Source of the DNA: Ruminococcaceae bacterium UBA2656
GTDB taxonomy: Bacteria; Bacillota; Clostridia; Oscillospirales; Acutalibacteraceae
DNA length: 14,934 nucleotides
Direction: 5' to 3'
NCBI GenBank assembly: GCA_002359465.1
Contig: DENA01000036.1
Coordinates: 99,916 to 114,849 of the forward strand
In this document: positions 3,412 to 12,970 of the stretch, one piece after another
Layout of the letters: every line of letters begins with the position of its first letter
Position numbering within the stretch: the first letter of the stretch is position 1
Notes under the pieces: model-generated
Database searches by the model: none
What the model was told of the DNA's origin: nothing
Seen by the model: the letters and a program-made list of their open reading frames with translations, nothing else
Program-made: the position numbers and the translations under genes

Positions 3412-3665
3412 CTAAAAATATGACAAAAACGTTGAAAGAGACAGTAGGATTTAAGCGAAAAGCAAAGCGAGCCGGTGCCAGTGAGAGTCCGGCATGAGTA
3501 GTTTATTTTTGAAAATCACTCTTGAGTTTCAGGCTGAAAGAGTCAATCGATTAAGCTTTGGCGGTTTTCCTCCGTTACCGGGAACACATATGAAAGTATG
3601 CAGAAATAGGTGGTTTAACGAAGCAAAGCCTTCGTCCTGTTCTCAGGGCGGAGGCTTTTTATTTT
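3412..3665 (+). promoter_or_regulatory. T-box leader specific for tRNA-Ile
   Basis: The ileS leader contains a complete transcriptional T-box. Stem I has the distal arm with AGCGAGCCGGTG and the specifier region GAAAATCACTC, which presents the isoleucine codon ATC at 3515-3517. The antiterminator is fully readable: helix A1 ATAGG (3606-3610) with CCTGT (3636-3640), helix A2 ACGAAG (3618-3623) with CTTCGT (3630-3635), and a seven-base bulge TGGTTTA (3611-3617). The bulge starts with TGGT, able to pair with the ACCA end of uncharged tRNA-Ile (A at the discriminator position). Uncharged tRNA-Ile should stabilise this form and allow ileS transcription. The leader fills the non-coding gap between yccF and ileS. 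Confidence 0.95.
3626..3662 (+). terminator. T-box attenuator terminator of ileS
   Basis: AAGCCTTCGTCCTG (3626-3639) pairs with CAGGGCGGAGGCTT (3644-3657) around a TTCT loop, followed by a T run. The 5' arm contains the 3' strands of both antiterminator helices, so the two folds exclude each other, as expected for a T-box. Confidence 0.93.
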
Positions 3666-3678
3666 GGGAGGTTTCAGA

Positions 3679-6600
3679 ATGTACGACAAAGTGCCTGCAA
3701 ATTTAAACTTTGTAGAGAGAGAGAAGAAAGTTGAAAAATTCTGGGAAGAGAACCAAATTTTCGAGAAGAGTATCGACAGCCGCAAAAACGGGGAAACATA
3801 TACTTTTTATGACGGCCCGCCCACCGCAAACGGCAAGCCCCACATCGGCCATGTTCTGACAAGGGTCATCAAAGATATGATTCCCCGCTACAGGACGATG
3901 AAGGGCTATCAGGTTCCCAGAAAAGCCGGATGGGACACCCACGGGCTCCCGGTGGAGCTGGAGGTGGAAAAGTTCCTGCATCTTGACGGCAAGGAGCAGA
4001 TTGAACAATACGGGCTTGAGCCGTTCGTAAAGCAGTGCAAGGAAAGCGTTTGGAAATACAAGGGCATGTGGGAGGATTTTTCCCGCACCGTCGGCTTCTG
4101 GGCGGACATGGGGCACCCTTATGTGACTTATGAAAATGATTATATTGAGTCTGAATGGTGGGCGTTGAAGCAAATCTGGGAAAAGGGCCTTCTGTACAAG
4201 GGCTTTAAGATTGTGCCCTACTGCCCTAGGTGCGGCACCCCCCTGTCCAGCCACGAGGTCGCGCAGGGCTACAAGGATGTCAAGGAAAAGTCCGCGATTG
4301 CAAAATTCAGGGTAAAGGGCGAGGACGCATACATTCTGGCATGGACAACCACCCCGTGGACGCTGCCCTCCAACGTTGCGCTGTGCGTCAACCCGGATGA
4401 AAACTATGTAAAGGTAAAAACGGAGGACGCCGTTTATTATCTGGCCGAGGCGCTTGCGCCAACGGTGCTTGGGGAAGGCTACACCGTGCTCGAAGCATAC
4501 TCCGGCAAGGATCTTGAGTATAAGGAATACGAACCTCTTTTCGACTTTGTAAAGCCGGACAAAAAATGCTGGTATGTCACCTGCGACCGCTATGTCACGC
4601 TGACGGACGGCACCGGCGTGGTTCATATTGCACCCGCTTTCGGCGAAGATGACGCCAATGTCGGCCGTAAATACGACCTGCCCTTCGTTCAACTGGTCGA
4701 CGGGAAGGGCGAAATGACCAAAGAAACCCTTTGGCCGGGCATGTTCTGCAAGGATGCGGACAAGGAGGTTTTGAAAAACCTGAAACAGCGCGGACTTTTG
4801 TTCTCCGCGCCGGCTTTCGAGCACAGCTACCCGTTCTGTTGGCGGTGCGACACCCCTCTGATCTACTACGCCAGAGACTCCTGGTTCATTAAGATGACCG
4901 CCGTAAAGGACGACCTGATCCGCAACAACAACACCATCCACTGGATTCCGGAAAGCATCGGCAAGGGCCGCTTCGGCGACTGGCTGGAAAACGTGCAGGA
5001 CTGGGGTATCAGCCGCAACCGTTACTGGGGCACCCCGCTGAATATCTGGGAATGCGAATGCGGACATAGACATGCCATCGGCAGTATTGAAGAGCTGAAA
5101 TCCATGTCGCCCAACTGTCCGGAAGACATTGAACTGCACAGGCCGTATATCGACGCGGTCACCATCACCTGTCCCGAATGCGGAAAGCAGATGAAGCGCG
5201 TGCCGGAGGTCATCGACTGCTGGTTCGATTCCGGCTCCATGCCGTTCGCGCAGCATCACTATCCATTTGAGAATCAGGAGCTTTTCAAAGAACAGTTCCC
5301 CGCCGACTTTATTTCCGAGGCGGTCGACCAGACAAGAGGGTGGTTCTATTCCCTACTGGCGATTTCTACCCTGATCTTCAATCAGGCTCCGTATAAAAAC
5401 GTAATCGTTCTCGGCCATGTACAGGACGAGAACGGGCAGAAAATGTCCAAGTCCAAGGGCAACGCGGTAGACCCGTTCGAAGCGCTGGAAACCTACGGCG
5501 CGGACGCCATCCGCTGGTATTTCTACAGCAATTCCGCCCCGTGGCTGCCGAACCGTTTTCACGGCAAGGCCGTGATGGAGGGTCAGCGCAAATTCATGGG
5601 TACGCTTTGGAATACCTATGCGTTTTTCGTGCTGTACGCAAACATCGACGAGTTTGACGCCACAAAATACACGCTGGACCTTGACAGCCTGACCGTAATG
5701 GACAAGTGGCTGTTGTCCCGTCTGAACACTCTTGTCAAAACAATAGACAGCCATCTGGCAAACTATAAAATTCCGGAAGCGGCACGCGTTTTACAGGATT
5801 TTGTCGATGAAATGAGCAATTGGTATGTCAGAAGAAGCCGTGAGCGGTTCTGGGTAAAGGGCATGCCGCAGGATAAAATCAACGCGTATATGACGCTGTA
5901 CACCGCCCTTGTGACAGTGGCAAAAGCGGCCGCCCCGATGATTCCGTTCATGGCGGAGGATATTTACCGCAATCTGGTCTGTAAGATCAATCCGGCCGAG
6001 CCGGAAAGCGTGCATCTCTGTGACTTCCCCTCTGCCGACGAAACGCTGATTGACGCGGAGCTGGAGAAAAACATGGAACTGGTTCTCGACATTGTCGTCC
6101 TGGGCCGCGCGGCAAGGAACACCGCCAACATTAAGAACCGCCAGCCGATTGCAAAAATGTATGTCCGGTCGGAAACCCTGCTGAGTGAATTCTATCAGAA
6201 AATTATTCGCGAAGAGCTGAACAGCAAAGAAATCGTGTTTACAGAGGATGTCTCCGACTTCACCTCCTACCGCTTCAAGCCGCAGCTTAAGATTCTTGGA
6301 CAGAAATACGGCAAAAAAATCGGTGAGATTAAAAACATGCTTGCCGCGCTGGACGGAAACGCAGCGAAAAAGGAACTGGATGCTGCGGGCGCACTGACCA
6401 TTTCCCTGAGCGACGGCCCTGTTTCCCTGACGCCAGACGAACTGCTGATTGAAACCGCACAGGCTGAAAATTATGTTTCGATGGCCGACGGCGGCCTGAC
6501 GGTCGTAATCGACACGAATCTGACGGAAGCACTCATCGAAGAGGGCTTCGTAAGGGAAATCATCAGTAAAATCCAGACAATGCGCAAGGACGCGGGCTTT

Positions 6601-6801
6601 GACGTAACCGACCATATTGTTGTTTATGAAAAGGGAAATGAAAAGATAGCGAAAATCATTTCGGACAATCTTGCTTCCATTCAAAACGACGTACTGGCAG
6701 ACGAAGTTAAACTCAATGAAATGAACGGGTTTGCCAAGGAGTGGGATCTAAACGGCGAGGCCGTGGAACTGGGCGTTCAAAAAACGGGCGCTGTAAAATA
6801 A
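3679..6801 (+). CDS. ileS: Isoleucyl-tRNA synthetase, type 2 (eukaryote-like)
   Basis: This cytoplasmic class Ia synthetase charges tRNA-Ile with isoleucine using ATP. The protein has 1040 residues. The ATP-binding HIGH motif is at 55-58 (in PHIGH) and KMSKS at 588-592. CxxC pairs are seen at CPRC, CWRC and CPEC, and the editing (CP1) domain lies between the two halves with the segment AWTTTPWTLPSN. Its length, the N-terminal signature around DGPPTANGKPHIGH, and the long C-terminal extension (DUF5915-like, about 900-1040) mark it as type 2 rather than the shorter ~930-residue bacterial type 1. Type 2 enzymes are known to tolerate the inhibitor mupirocin. The HIGH motif is canonical, not rearranged. 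The start is the ATG at 3679, seven bases after GGGAGG; a TTG at 3664 overlaps this site and is unlikely. Regulation is by the upstream T-box. Confidence 0.97.
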   Translation: MYDKVPANLNFVEREKKVEKFWEENQIFEKSIDSRKNGETYTFYDGPPTANGKPHIGHVLTRVIKDMIPRYRTMKGYQVPRKAGWDTHGLPVELEVEKFLHLDGKEQIEQYGLEPFVKQCKESVWKYKGMWEDFSRTVGFWADMGHPYVTYENDYIESEWWALKQIWEKGLLYKGFKIVPYCPRCGTPLSSHEVAQGYKDVKEKSAIAKFRVKGEDAYILAWTTTPWTLPSNVALCVNPDENYVKVKTEDAVYYLAEALAPTVLGEGYTVLEAYSGKDLEYKEYEPLFDFVKPDKKCWYVTCDRYVTLTDGTGVVHIAPAFGEDDANVGRKYDLPFVQLVDGKGEMTKETLWPGMFCKDADKEVLKNLKQRGLLFSAPAFEHSYPFCWRCDTPLIYYARDSWFIKMTAVKDDLIRNNNTIHWIPESIGKGRFGDWLENVQDWGISRNRYWGTPLNIWECECGHRHAIGSIEELKSMSPNCPEDIELHRPYIDAVTITCPECGKQMKRVPEVIDCWFDSGSMPFAQHHYPFENQELFKEQFPADFISEAVDQTRGWFYSLLAISTLIFNQAPYKNVIVLGHVQDENGQKMSKSKGNAVDPFEALETYGADAIRWYFYSNSAPWLPNRFHGKAVMEGQRKFMGTLWNTYAFFVLYANIDEFDATKYTLDLDSLTVMDKWLLSRLNTLVKTIDSHLANYKIPEAARVLQDFVDEMSNWYVRRSRERFWVKGMPQDKINAYMTLYTALVTVAKAAAPMIPFMAEDIYRNLVCKINPAEPESVHLCDFPSADETLIDAELEKNMELVLDIVVLGRAARNTANIKNRQPIAKMYVRSETLLSEFYQKIIREELNSKEIVFTEDVSDFTSYRFKPQLKILGQKYGKKIGEIKNMLAALDGNAAKKELDAAGALTISLSDGPVSLTPDELLIETAQAENYVSMADGGLTVVIDTNLTEALIEEGFVREIISKIQTMRKDAGFDVTDHIVVYEKGNEKIAKIISDNLASIQNDVLADEVKLNEMNGFAKEWDLNGEAVELGVQKTGAVK

Positions 6802-8873: not shown

Positions 8874-9413
8874 TTAAGAAACCGTATCAACAAAGGTCCT
8901 TTGATATCCGCTGATACTTTCCTGAATAATTTTCTTTGCCTGCTCCGCATTCCGGATATAATCAACGGCTGTGGCCTTGTCTTCCAGTTCTTTGTAAATG
9001 GAAAAAAAATGAATCATCTCATCGAAAATATGAGCGGGCAATTCGTCAATGCTTCGATACTCGTTGAAAGTAGGGTCCCCAAATGGAATGGCGATTATCT
9101 TATCGTCGACAAAGCCCCCGTCCTCCATGGAAATAACCCCAATGGGGTAGCAGCGGACAAGGGAAAGCGGCTGAACATCCTCGGAACAGAGGATCAGCAC
9201 ATCCAGCGGGTCATGGTCCGCCGCGTAAGTGCGCGGAATAAAGCCGTAATTCGCCGGATAATGCGCGGATGTATACAGAACACGGTCCATGGAAAGCAGT
9301 CCGGTTTCCTTATCCAGTTCATACTTGGTCTTACAGCCCTTTGGAATTTCTATCACTGCAAAAAAATCATCAGCGTGGATTCTCTCCTGAGAAATATCGT
9401 GCCAAATATTCAA
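8874..9413 (-). CDS. ppa: Inorganic pyrophosphatase (family I)
   Basis: This soluble cytoplasmic enzyme hydrolyses pyrophosphate to two phosphates (EC 3.6.1.1), pulling biosynthetic reactions forward. The family I signature is clear: FFAVIEIPKG near 17-26, the Tyr-rich HYPANYGFIP at 51-60, and the metal-binding DHDPLDVLIL with Asp66, Asp68 and Asp71. At 179 residues it has normal family length. The start is a TTG at 9411-9413: AGGAGG lies seven bases upstream (9421-9426) and the family N-terminus begins here. An upstream in-frame ATG would extend the protein backwards through the riboswitch terminator and is rejected. The gene stands alone behind a fluoride riboswitch. Fluoride is a classical inhibitor of family I pyrophosphatase, which explains the arrangement. 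Confidence 0.96.
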   Translation of the reverse strand: MNIWHDISQERIHADDFFAVIEIPKGCKTKYELDKETGLLSMDRVLYTSAHYPANYGFIPRTYAADHDPLDVLILCSEDVQPLSLVRCYPIGVISMEDGGFVDDKIIAIPFGDPTFNEYRSIDELPAHIFDEMIHFFSIYKELEDKATAVDYIRNAEQAKKIIQESISGYQRTFVDTVS

Positions 9414-9451
9414 AAAAGTCCCTCCTGTTAAAAAATATTCTGATAAACAAA

Positions 9452-9497
9452 TAAAAAGCTGACAACCCGCTGTGTCCATCACAGAAGTCATCAGCTT
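9452..9497 (-). terminator. Riboswitch-controlled terminator of ppa
   Basis: On the minus strand a long stem starts with AAGCTGA (9491-9497) pairing TCAGCTT (9456-9462). It continues through G-U-rich pairs to CTGTG/CACAG around an ATGGA loop, and is followed by TTTTTATTTG. Its 5' arm is the conserved 3' strand of the fluoride aptamer (GCTGATGACTTCT), so aptamer and terminator cannot form together. This predicts an ON switch: fluoride prevents termination. Confidence 0.88.
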
Positions 9498-9543
9498 ATA
9501 AAAGCAATTTTAGCGTTCGCTATGGGAGAACTTCATTCCCTGC
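9480..9543 (-). promoter_or_regulatory. Fluoride riboswitch (crcB motif)
   Basis: Read on the minus strand, the leader matches the crcB/fluoride aptamer in order. GGGA ... TCCC (P2) encloses ATGAAGTTC. GAAGT pairs with ACTTC (P1, plus-strand 9484-9488 for the 3' strand). Then come CCATA, the AACGC element, an A/T-rich P3, and the hallmark GCTGATGACTTCT. The aptamer begins at about the predicted transcript start and overlaps a terminator. Pyrophosphatase is one of the gene classes known to lie behind fluoride riboswitches. The match is by eye, not by covariance model. Confidence 0.9.
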
Positions 9544-9547
9544 TGTT

Positions 9548-9577
9548 ATCATAGCACAATATGGAACATCCTGTCAA
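9548..9577 (-). promoter_or_regulatory. Promoter of the ppa riboswitch leader
   Basis: On the minus strand a perfect TTGACA (9572-9577) and TATGAT (9548-9553) are separated by 18 bases. The predicted start near 9541 coincides with the first bases of the fluoride aptamer. Confidence 0.8.
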
Positions 9578-10106: not shown

Positions 10107-12764
10107 TTAAAATGTGCCTTCCTGCACGGACTTTTTGGAAAATTTCCTTTGAAATGCTTTGACGATTTCAACAATCGGGATGACAGAAAATGCAAGCAGC
10201 AGGGCGACCGAATACTCAAGCAGGGAAATATCCTCAAACTGGAAAGCAAACGCCAGGGCGGGAATGTAAATGACGGCTGTTGTCAGTACCAGGGAAACCA
10301 GCATCGCGCCGATCAGATATCCGTTCTGGCTCTTCATGGTAAAAATCGAGTGGCGTTGGGAGCGCATGTTGAATGAGTGAAAAATTTCGGCCATGGACAT
10401 GGTCAGGAAGGCCATGGTCATGCCGTCCGCGCTGTTGGTGATCTCCCACACACCGGCTTCCATAAAGTGGCCGACAAAGTAGGCGGACAGGGTGACGATG
10501 GTCACTAGAATTCCCTGATAGGAGACATCTGTGCCAAGCCCGCCGGCGAAAATGCCGTCTCTGGAGTTCCGCGGCCTTCGCTGCATCAGGGCTTTTTCAC
10601 GCTTTTCCATCCCAAGCGCAAGGGCCGGGAAACAGTCGGTGATCAGGTTGATCCACAGCAGATGCACGGGCTTTAAAATTACAAACCCCAAAAGGGTCGC
10701 TGTAAAAATGGACAGGACCTCGCTCAGATTGGAAGCCAGCAGAAACTGGATCGCCTTCCGGATATTGTCGTAGATTCTTCTGCCCTCTTCCACTGCGGAA
10801 ACAATGGTCGCGAAATTATCGTCCGCAAGTACCATGTCTGCCACGTTTTTGGTGACGTCCGTGCCCGTGATGCCCATGCCGACGCCGATGTCGGCGCTCT
10901 TGATGGACGGCGCGTCGTTCACGCCGTCGCCGGTCATGGCGGTAATCATTCCGTTGGTTTTCCACGCATTGACAATGCGCACCTTATGTTCCGGCTGAAC
11001 GCGGGCATATACGGAGTAGCGCCCGATGGTATCCTTCAATTCCCCGTCGCTGATTTCGTCCAGCTGGGCACCGGTGATCGCCTGTGATTCATCAGTAATA
11101 ATTCCTAGCTGCATCGCGATGGCCACCGCTGTGTCCCTGTGGTCGCCCGTGATCATGACCGGCCGGATTCCCGCCGCCCTGCATTCCTTAATCGCGTCCA
11201 CAACCTCCGGACGGATGGGGTCGATCATTCCGGTCAGGCCGATCAGGGTCAGGCCGTTCTCCAGTTCGGCCGGTTCAAAGGAATCCGGCGCATGGTCATA
11301 TTTTTTAAAGGCCGCGCAAAGCACACGCAGAGCCTTGCCCGCCATACGCTTATTTTCAGAACGAATTTCCGCGTGCAGGGAATCGGTCATCGGAACGATC
11401 TGTCCGTTTTTCAGAATATGGGTGCATTTCTTAATGACTTCATCCGGAGCGCCCTTGGTGTACTGAATATAGCTTCCGTCCGTGCAGGAATGGACGGTCG
11501 ACATCATTTTGCGCATGGAGTCGAACGGCGCCTCGCCGATTCTGGGATTCGTTTTTTTCAGGTCGTTTTTATCGAGCTTCAGGCTCGCGGCGTAGCTGAC
11601 AAGAGCGGCTTCCGTCGGTTCGCCGGTCACTTCCCCGTCCCTGCCAAGCTCAGCGTCGCTGCAAAGGGCCATCGCGGTGGCAAGCAGCGGTTCGTCTTGT
11701 GCGTAATGCTCCACCACGGTCATTTTGTTCTGCGTCAGCGTACCGGTTTTGTCGGAGCAGATCACCTGTGCGCAGCCAAGCGTTTCAACAGCCGTCAGCT
11801 TGCGGATAACGGCGTTTCGCTTTGACATATTGGTGACGCCGATGGAAAGCACAATCGTTACGACGGTGGCAAGGCCCTCCGGAATCGCGGCCAGGGCCAG
11901 GCTGACCGCAACCATAAAGGTATTTAATACTACTTCGCCGCTGAAATCGCCCGATTTGATCAAGCTGAACGCAAAAATAAATATGCAGATGCCAATGACC
12001 AAATTGCTCAGGATTTTGCTGAGCTGGTTTAATTTGATCTGCAGCGGGGTAACATTGTCTTTCGCATTCGCAAGCGCATCGGCAATTTTCCCCATTTCCG
12101 TATCCATGCCCGTTGCCACGACCACCGCTTTGCCGCGGCCGTAGACAGCCGTGCTGCCCATGTACGCCATGTTTTTGCGGTCGCCGAGCGAGACGTCCGA
12201 CTCACCCTCCATATAGAGCATTTCGATGACCTTATCGACGGGGACGGATTCGCCCGTCAGCGCGGCCTCCTCAATCTTCATACTCTTGGAGTCAATGATG
12301 CGCCCGTCCGCCGGAACCGCGTCGCCGGCTTCCAGAATGACGACGTCACCAACGACAAGGTCTTCGCTTTTTATAGAAACAATGTGTCCGTTACGCAGAA
12401 CCTTACTTGTGGCTGACGACATTTCCTGTAGAGCTTCCAGCGCTTTTTCGGCCTTGTTTTCCTGGTAGACGCCGAGCGCCGCGTTCACGACGACGACGAA
12501 CAGGATGATGATAACGTCCGCAAAGCCCTCGCCCGAATAGCGCGAGGTGACGGCCGAAATGACGGCCGCGACGATCAACATGATGATCATGGGATCCGCC
12601 ATCTGGGCGAAGAAGCGCTTTACGAGGGGATCCTTCCGGCCCTCAGCTAACTTGTTGCTGCCGTTTTCGGCGAGACGTTTTTGGGCCTCGGCTGCGGAAA
12701 GACCTTCGCGGGACGAGCGCGTTTCCTTTAAAACATCATCGACCCCACTGCAATAATACTTCAT
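10107..12764 (-). CDS. P2-type cation-transporting ATPase (Ca2+/Mn2+ exporter)
   Basis: This is an 885-residue membrane pump with the full P-type layout. It has an N-terminal cation-ATPase domain, TGES of the actuator domain at 170-173, the phosphorylated Asp338 in CSDKTGTLT, the nucleotide-domain segment KGAPDEV, and TGDGVNDAP of the hinge near 611-619. Membrane ligands match SERCA/PMR1-type Ca2+ pumps: IPEGL in M4, NLSE in M5, NLITD in M6, and MAEIFHSFNMRS in the M8 region. Such pumps move Ca2+, and several also move Mn2+. The start is the ATG at 12764, seven bases after AGGAGG (12772-12777); longer upstream starts would run through the leader terminator. It stands alone behind a manganese riboswitch, which argues for a role in Mn2+ export. 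Selectivity itself cannot be read from the sequence. Confidence 0.95.
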   Translation of the reverse strand: MKYYCSGVDDVLKETRSSREGLSAAEAQKRLAENGSNKLAEGRKDPLVKRFFAQMADPMIIMLIVAAVISAVTSRYSGEGFADVIIILFVVVVNAALGVYQENKAEKALEALQEMSSATSKVLRNGHIVSIKSEDLVVGDVVILEAGDAVPADGRIIDSKSMKIEEAALTGESVPVDKVIEMLYMEGESDVSLGDRKNMAYMGSTAVYGRGKAVVVATGMDTEMGKIADALANAKDNVTPLQIKLNQLSKILSNLVIGICIFIFAFSLIKSGDFSGEVVLNTFMVAVSLALAAIPEGLATVVTIVLSIGVTNMSKRNAVIRKLTAVETLGCAQVICSDKTGTLTQNKMTVVEHYAQDEPLLATAMALCSDAELGRDGEVTGEPTEAALVSYAASLKLDKNDLKKTNPRIGEAPFDSMRKMMSTVHSCTDGSYIQYTKGAPDEVIKKCTHILKNGQIVPMTDSLHAEIRSENKRMAGKALRVLCAAFKKYDHAPDSFEPAELENGLTLIGLTGMIDPIRPEVVDAIKECRAAGIRPVMITGDHRDTAVAIAMQLGIITDESQAITGAQLDEISDGELKDTIGRYSVYARVQPEHKVRIVNAWKTNGMITAMTGDGVNDAPSIKSADIGVGMGITGTDVTKNVADMVLADDNFATIVSAVEEGRRIYDNIRKAIQFLLASNLSEVLSIFTATLLGFVILKPVHLLWINLITDCFPALALGMEKREKALMQRRPRNSRDGIFAGGLGTDVSYQGILVTIVTLSAYFVGHFMEAGVWEITNSADGMTMAFLTMSMAEIFHSFNMRSQRHSIFTMKSQNGYLIGAMLVSLVLTTAVIYIPALAFAFQFEDISLLEYSVALLLAFSVIPIVEIVKAFQRKFSKKSVQEGTF

Positions 12765-12833
12765 TCGTGTGCCTCCTGTTTTCAAACGTTGCTGTTTTAA
12801 GGGTATGCTGGAATTGTATTTATATATGAATAT

Positions 12834-12871
12834 GAAAAAACTCATGGACAGGCGAAGGCCTATCCATGAGT
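12834..12871 (-). terminator. Riboswitch-controlled terminator of the ATPase gene
   Basis: On the minus strand ACTCATGGATAGGC pairs over 14 bp with GCCTGTCCATGAGT around a four-base loop, followed directly by TTTTTTC (to about 12834). It starts exactly where the aptamer ends and lies about 70 bp before the ATG. Manganese binding is expected to prevent its formation. Confidence 0.9.
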
Positions 12872-12970
12872 CTGGTCGTTTCATTCAAGCCAGGCGGCGG
12901 GCCGCCATGTATGTTGACTTGGACCGCTGCGGCAGATGCCGGAGAGCTGACTACTCCCCCACGGAAGTCT
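12872..12970 (-). promoter_or_regulatory. Manganese riboswitch (yybP-ykoY motif)
   Basis: The minus-strand leader carries the two hallmark Mn2+-binding loop segments. GGGGAGTAG lies near the 5' end (plus-strand complement CTACTCCCC, 12951-12959), and GTCAACATAC lies in the second arm (complement at 12909-12918). Helices flank each segment, including CCGGCATCTGCCG and GGCGGCCCGCCGCC. The 3' part closes with GAAACGACCAGAC just before the terminator. The aptamer starts at the predicted transcript start. This class is known to control P-type cation ATPases and Mn2+ exporters. Assigned by eye; a covariance search would settle it. Confidence 0.9.

Follow-up and report, generated by a model that had tools for sequence, protein, structure and literature searches.

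A candidate fluoride riboswitch with an overlapping terminator precedes a second family I pyrophosphatase gene in Ruminococcaceae bacterium UBA2656

Introduction

Transcriptional fluoride riboswitches of the Bacillus cereus crcB type (RF01734) have a pseudoknotted aptamer with the stems P1 and P3. Their pseudoknot sequence is common to the base of an intrinsic terminator, and fluoride stabilises the aptamer so that it resists being disrupted as the terminator forms (PMC11077080). A switch of this class ahead of a pyrophosphatase (PPase) gene has been described in Enterobacter cloacae FRM, where the GI3 operon of ppaC, uspA, eno, gpmA, crcB and orf5249 is fluoride-induced and lies behind an RF01734 riboswitch. 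A 166-fold induction is listed for ppaC. Its product is annotated as manganese-dependent, which is family II by name, its gene is the first of six, and the authors interpret it as an extra copy of an enzyme that fluoride inhibits (PMC5533749). Both the riboswitch class and the pyrophosphatase target are already in print.

Family I PPases are strongly inhibited at 0.5 mM fluoride, and family II and membrane PPases need far more. In yeast, overexpression of a family I PPase raised fluoride tolerance and prevented the rise in pyrophosphate, and a fluoride-insensitive family II enzyme gave the highest tolerance. An attempt at selection by IPP1 overexpression in wild-type yeast failed (PMC11857102).

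In this study, we analyzed a stretch of 14,934 nt from Ruminococcaceae bacterium UBA2656, referred to as the window. Its PPase leader resembles the B. cereus type in the pseudoknotted aptamer with P1 and P3 and in the overlap of pseudoknot and terminator. It differs in its target gene and in that its joining region contains an additional small hairpin, UAGCG-AA-CGCUA (9522-9511); stretches like this hairpin occur in many, but not all, of 35 aligned aptamers. As in E. cloacae FRM, RF01734 lies upstream of a pyrophosphatase gene, but here the enzyme belongs to family I, the fluoride-sensitive kind, and apparently forms a single-gene unit. The same aptamer class, in many cases with an overlapping terminator, was found in clusters at loci L066 and L067 of congeners and L068 of another genus. 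L066 also has a switched PPase paralogue, as in the window. The clusters comprise several switches each, whereas the window's switch is the only one in the assembled part of its genome. The literature that was covered, mostly outside subscription journals, contained no report of a fluoride-switched family I PPase in this bacterial family. We interpret the locus, with a probability of roughly 0.88, as a transcriptional fluoride ON riboswitch controlling a dedicated second copy of family I PPase. The novel detail is that the switched PPase is a second isozyme, with the unswitched copy beside rpsB in four genomes of the genus.

Results

Anatomy of the leader upstream of the pyrophosphatase gene

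The following features were located, all on the minus strand.

9548-9577 (-): sigma-70-type promoter TTGACA-18 nt-TATGAT with TG before the -10 element; 11 of 12 consensus positions matched
9475-9549 (-): fluoride riboswitch aptamer RF01734, by covariance-model match
9524-9540 (-): P1 stem-loop GGGA-AUGAAGUUC-UCCC, from the sequence and pair counts in the alignment
9494-9505 (-): P3 stem GCUU/AAGC, with both-sided changes in 4 of 4 pairs among 35 sequences
9484-9488 (-): pseudoknot 3' strand ACUUC, common to the 5' arm of the terminator, by covariation
9449-9497 (-): intrinsic terminator, with arms 9497-9480 and 9474-9456, loop 9479-9475 and U-rich tail 9455-9449
9421-9426 (-): ribosome-binding site AGGAGG, from the sequence, 7 nt before the TTG start
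8874-9413 (-): family I soluble inorganic pyrophosphatase of 179 aa with TTG start, by PF00719
8819-8836 (-): terminator-like hairpin 3' of the PPase gene, weak alone (2 such sites in the stretch against a shuffled mean of 1.3)

A search of the minus strand with the Rfam model RF01734 matched the aptamer over the full length of the model (1-64), with 41.4 bits against a gathering score of 34 and an E value of 1e-8. Under a local model of 35 aptamers, the window's own among them, it scored 73.5 bits. Transcription would start near 9541 (-). The 5' strand of the pseudoknot consists of the P1 loop bases 9534-9530 (GAAGU). The sequence GCTGATGACTTCT at 9495-9483 covers both the last part of P3 and the aptamer's pseudoknot strand, and it also lies within the 5' arm of the terminator hairpin. 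With 9497-9480 common to the aptamer and this arm, the aptamer and the expression platform are mutually exclusive by computation. The hairpin stretch folded at -21.8 kcal/mol (z -5.06), none of 200 shuffles was equally good, and the tail sequence after the hairpin is UUUAUUU. A simple terminator scan of the stretch did not pick up the hairpin 9497-9456, we think because of its bulge.

The first-pass annotation had placed a promoter, a fluoride aptamer and a terminator at 9452-9577, with the conserved 3' strand of the aptamer as the 5' arm of the terminator. The coordinates, the anatomy, the riboswitch class and the shared strand were all borne out. Its proposal of an ON switch acting on PPase also holds by sequence, structure and comparison, the ON direction being the one to expect from these parts. 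As it had stated, no exporter was seen among the genes of the window; crcB lies elsewhere in the genome.

In the absence of fluoride, the terminator would capture the 3' strand of the aptamer and RNA polymerase would halt before the PPase gene. When fluoride is bound as a magnesium-fluoride complex, the pseudoknotted aptamer would keep this strand, so that the terminator would be blocked and PPase made. Fluoride should thus turn transcription on because the anatomy of the window fits the mechanism of the class (PMC11077080). The PPase gene is probably a single-gene transcription unit, since it is followed by the terminator-like hairpin at 8836-8819 and a promoter-like site (8764-8736) lies ahead of the gene next to it.

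The window carries three riboregulators within 10 kb, namely the fluoride, manganese-like and T-box leaders. The leader of a P-type ATPase gene (10107-12884), at 12836-12964 (-), matched yybP-ykoY with 22.2 bits against a cut-off of 45 (E 0.01) and looks like a manganese riboswitch of this class below the Rfam cut-off. It contains the loops GGGGAGUAG and GUCAACAUAC..UGGC, both of them the hallmark of the class, and a strong terminator-like hairpin comes after them (-29.8 kcal/mol for 12825-12885, z -8.86). Because the yybP-ykoY-like leader occupies 12836-12964, the ATG at 12884 in the ORF list appears too early, and the ATPase gene probably starts at 12764. The T-box leader at 3423-3642 (+), before ileS (3664-6801), scored 69.5 bits, below the gathering score of 93, with an E value of 1.3e-13.

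Conservation of the aptamer and the overlapping terminator

Covariation was examined in an alignment of 35 of 73 aptamers, leaving out 36 antiporter leaders and two leaders without an assigned target. The 5-bp pseudoknot showed pairing in 99.4% of cells; in 13 of the 35 aptamers U-A was exchanged for C-G, and three of the five pairs were invariant. Over the whole structure, both sides had changed in 49 cells compared to a shuffled mean of 17.4, and none of 500 shuffles reached 49. Counted by pairs, the figure was 8 against 5.1 in shuffles, with one of 500 shuffles as high, and further pair types (17 against 16.7), one of five covariation measures, showed no excess. Sliding the partners by one column lowered pairing from 90.5% to about 60%, a control somewhat in favor of the structure because this was specified from the known fold and the window sequence. 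P1 was the weakest helix (79.3% paired), probably due to rows shifted within the alignment. The window's aptamer retains P1, P3 and all five pseudoknot pairs.

The overlap with a terminator was examined in the 62 leaders carrying the motif, 11 of 73 without the searched motif strings being left out, and dinucleotide shuffles of the downstream sequence were used as controls. The strict rule required at least five of the first eight motif bases to be paired near the hairpin end, an energy of -13 kcal/mol or lower and a T-rich tail. An overlapping terminator was found in 50 of the 62 testable leaders compared to 16 of 1,240 shuffles, and in all eight riboswitch-PPase leaders. Looser rules, passed by 51 of 60 leaders, were replaced; only the strict test discriminates, because 232 of 600 shuffles passed the looser ones as well. 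Among relatives, the 3' arm and loop of the terminator vary and the aptamer strand is nearly constant.

Targets of fluoride riboswitches in the family

In 300 genomes of the same family, a riboswitch match was present in 60 and above the cut-off in 52, the stricter filters of this search losing some weak matches. We examined 72 of the 79 matches and left out the seven weakest (22-25 bits). The target was defined as the first recognised gene behind the switch, using Pfam on representatives; in two of the 72, the assigned gene starts 346 and 581 nt behind the switch. The most frequent target was an antiporter of the Na+/H+ exchanger family (36), followed by CrcB (13) and family I PPase (7). A Rex-like CoA-binding protein, an MFS transporter, a GNAT acetyltransferase and a MutS-like protein were found three times each, CLC and a universal stress protein once each, and two switches had no assigned target. 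PPase thus makes up a small share of the targets in this family, 7 of the 72 switches examined, and such a target had already been published.

The seven PPase cases come from six genomes in two genera, and an eighth lies on the MAG contig L112 of Clostridiales bacterium AS01afH2WH_19. Among the named-genome PPase loci listed (at least 80, from a scan biased to ATG starts), two had an RF01734 match: that of L112 leads into PPase, and that of L142 is on the opposite strand. A survey of the class gave a riboswitch match in 86 of 391 genomes. The 80 riboswitch genomes outside the family had 17 PF00719 matches, and a PF02833 search of 76 of these 80 together with four genomes of the genus gave 39 matches. 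By coordinates, PPase was beside a listed riboswitch in none of the 80 (family I) or 76 (family II) genomes outside the family, and broken contigs may hide some cases.

Clusters of fluoride riboswitches were also observed. L066 (genome G152), L067 (G234) and L068 (G213) contain six, five and four of them within a few kb, often divergent and mostly ahead of different genes. Their targets include MutS-like proteins, Usp, an MFS transporter, GNAT, a Rex-like CoA-binding protein and CrcB, with PPase in L066, and these clusters have the appearance of fluoride resistance islands with multiple promoters. In L066, the MFS gene appears as two overlapping frames. Proteins of about 510 aa with MutS domain V are encoded as two tandem pairs at L066 1786-4817 and 9898-12988, and Pfam gave no MutS domain beyond domain V in them. 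At L080 1027-1180 (G170), a fluoride riboswitch is followed by the first PPase codons (MNIWHDISSMM) and a stop, and then by two crcB genes; this genome seems to have lost its switched PPase, with the switch now leading into crcB.

The switched pyrophosphatase is a second family I copy

The window's PPase matched PF00719 with 191.9 bits (cut-off 23.5) over profile positions 1-152 of 153. This was the sole Pfam match, and the family II DHHA2 domain was absent. In the PDB, the proteins most closely related to it are inorganic pyrophosphatases (E 2e-48), a family with many solved structures. It stayed below the cut-off of every NCBIfam model, with NF002317 inorganic diphosphatase the best at 157.3 bits against 200; these equivalog models are narrower than Pfam's. 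Inhibition of its pyrophosphate hydrolysis by submillimolar fluoride is predicted for it as a property of the family (PMC11857102).

The window's genome (G000) encodes two family I PPases. The other copy (L003) lies beside a gene that we take, from the sequence of this neighbor, to be rpsB. The first-pass annotation had proposed that the cell would make more of the poisoned enzyme under fluoride. PPase is the target as it had stated, but the switched gene is a second copy and not the sole PPase. All six whole genomes with a switched PPase carry at least one further PF00719 match without a switch, and 39 of the 219 other genomes with a PF00719 match are listed with two or more, some of these second matches being possibly weak or partial. 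The association gave a Fisher p of about 5e-5, a value that treats genomes as independent though four of the six are from one genus. G296 and G170, which belong to the same two genera and lack a switched PPase, have one PPase each. The rpsB neighbor is common to the unswitched copies of G000, G025, G152, G234 and G296, and it was not beside those of G051, G170 and G247. At eight unswitched PPase loci (the six genomes and two relatives), no Rfam fluoride match was found at E 0.5, and the local model gave at most 13.8 bits and nothing convincing; of its weak matches, those in L098 and L100 overlap the PPase gene's own start. The unswitched copy is presumably expressed constitutively.

A tree was built from 86 of 125 PPases, with 40 of the 79 unswitched sequences from named genomes among them. 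The six switched PPases of the genus group (the window, G025, G152 twice, G234 and L112) formed one clade with support of 100/95. Its sister was the single PPase of G296 (100/94), and the rpsB-linked copies of other congeners came next. The switched PPases of the other genus (G051 and G247) formed a separate group (100/99). The switched PPases thus fall into two groups in the tree, where the well-supported branches require two changes; one clade of all eight switched PPases was not rejected in the AU test (p-AU 0.178), the bootstrap was not fully settled, and G247 sits on a long branch. G025 and one of the two G152 loci preserve the gene order ade, riboswitch, PPase, P-type ATPase.

These data bear on the possibility that the switched PPase is an isozyme adapted to fluoride, less inhibited or differently regulated, and not a mere spare. 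Its separate clade in the genus is what such adaptation might leave. The syntenic switched copies (G000, G025 and G152 at 174 kb) share 82-84% identity with one another, compared to 97% for the rpsB-linked copies of the same genomes, a faster change that could reflect relaxed selection on a rarely used copy. Position 50 adjoins the residue that aligns with the active-site Tyr51 of E. coli; every one of the six switched PPases in the genus clade has Ala there (9266-9264 in the window), and all 117 unswitched ones have Thr. We also compared 15 active-site residues of the E. coli enzyme, with the numbering verified on an E. coli ppa sequence. At 14 of the 15, all eight switched and 117 unswitched PPases were identical. 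The exception, E98, is Gly in the window and mostly N, G, S or D among the unswitched PPases, and it varies in both sets. The tested active site is therefore unchanged save for a position that varies without a switch too, and we consider an adapted isozyme unlikely compared to a dedicated second copy of the ordinary enzyme.

Exporter genes and the state of their leaders

CrcB is encoded on another contig of the window's genome, and a CLC protein is also encoded (L005). The crcB leader of this genome gave no Rfam match at E 5 and no local-model match in the right orientation. No second fluoride riboswitch was found in the assembly, which is 86% complete and may have missed one. G025 (97% complete) has a single riboswitch match, ahead of PPase. 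One of its crcB leaders holds a shortened relative of the aptamer without the pseudoknot loop (19 bits with the local model; L193 1381-1434), and no local-model match was found ahead of its other crcB pair (L205). In G152, one crcB leader gave a weak local-model match (18.4 bits; L206 1299-1368), and riboswitch matches are present at another crcB pair of this genome and at both crcB genes of G234. A hairpin-like stretch and a T-rich tract were observed before crcB in G025 (L193) and in the window's genome (L002 upstream of 1854, -). The exporter switch may possibly have decayed in G025, G152 and the window's genome. In the window's species and in G025, the intact switch that was found is on PPase, not on crcB.

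As decay seems to occur in the genus, judging from the G025 leader with its lost pseudoknot loop and from the weak G152 leader, the window's aptamer might itself be a decayed, non-switching relic, with PPase merely attenuated or constitutive. We regard this as quite improbable, since the window's copy scores above the Rfam cut-off, has P1, P3 and five pseudoknot pairs intact, and still has a matching terminator, in which relatives differ at the 3' arm and loop. It is scarcely credible that the motif is a chance match, belongs to another riboswitch class or acts on another gene, given the E value of 1e-8 for RF01734 and the like leader before PPase at seven more loci, of which six lie in five further whole genomes and one on the MAG contig. 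These readings and the relic were set aside on scores, recurrence and intact pairing.

Discussion

Under the preferred reading, a fluoride ON riboswitch controlling a dedicated second family I PPase, the extra enzyme would compensate for the fluoride inhibition of the rpsB-linked copy, and the accumulation of pyrophosphate would be avoided. A family II PPase was not found by PF02833 in G000, G025, G152 or G234. Why a spare soluble PPase would be needed is less obvious because the window's genome also encodes a membrane pyrophosphatase, a type that is inhibited only at much higher fluoride according to the yeast report (PMC11857102).

The locus offers a clean and compact test case for a fluoride switch that would replace the poisoned enzyme rather than export the poison. 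Since family I PPases with and without a switch coexist in one genome, dose alone and a changed enzyme can be tested directly against each other as the source of tolerance. More tentatively, and with the odds somewhat against it, the fluoride response of this lineage may have moved from export to enzyme replacement, the duplicated switched PPase having become a fluoride-stress isozyme while a crcB switch decayed. If this is true, the sole intact fluoride switch found in the window's species and in G025 would be one that drives a pyrophosphatase.
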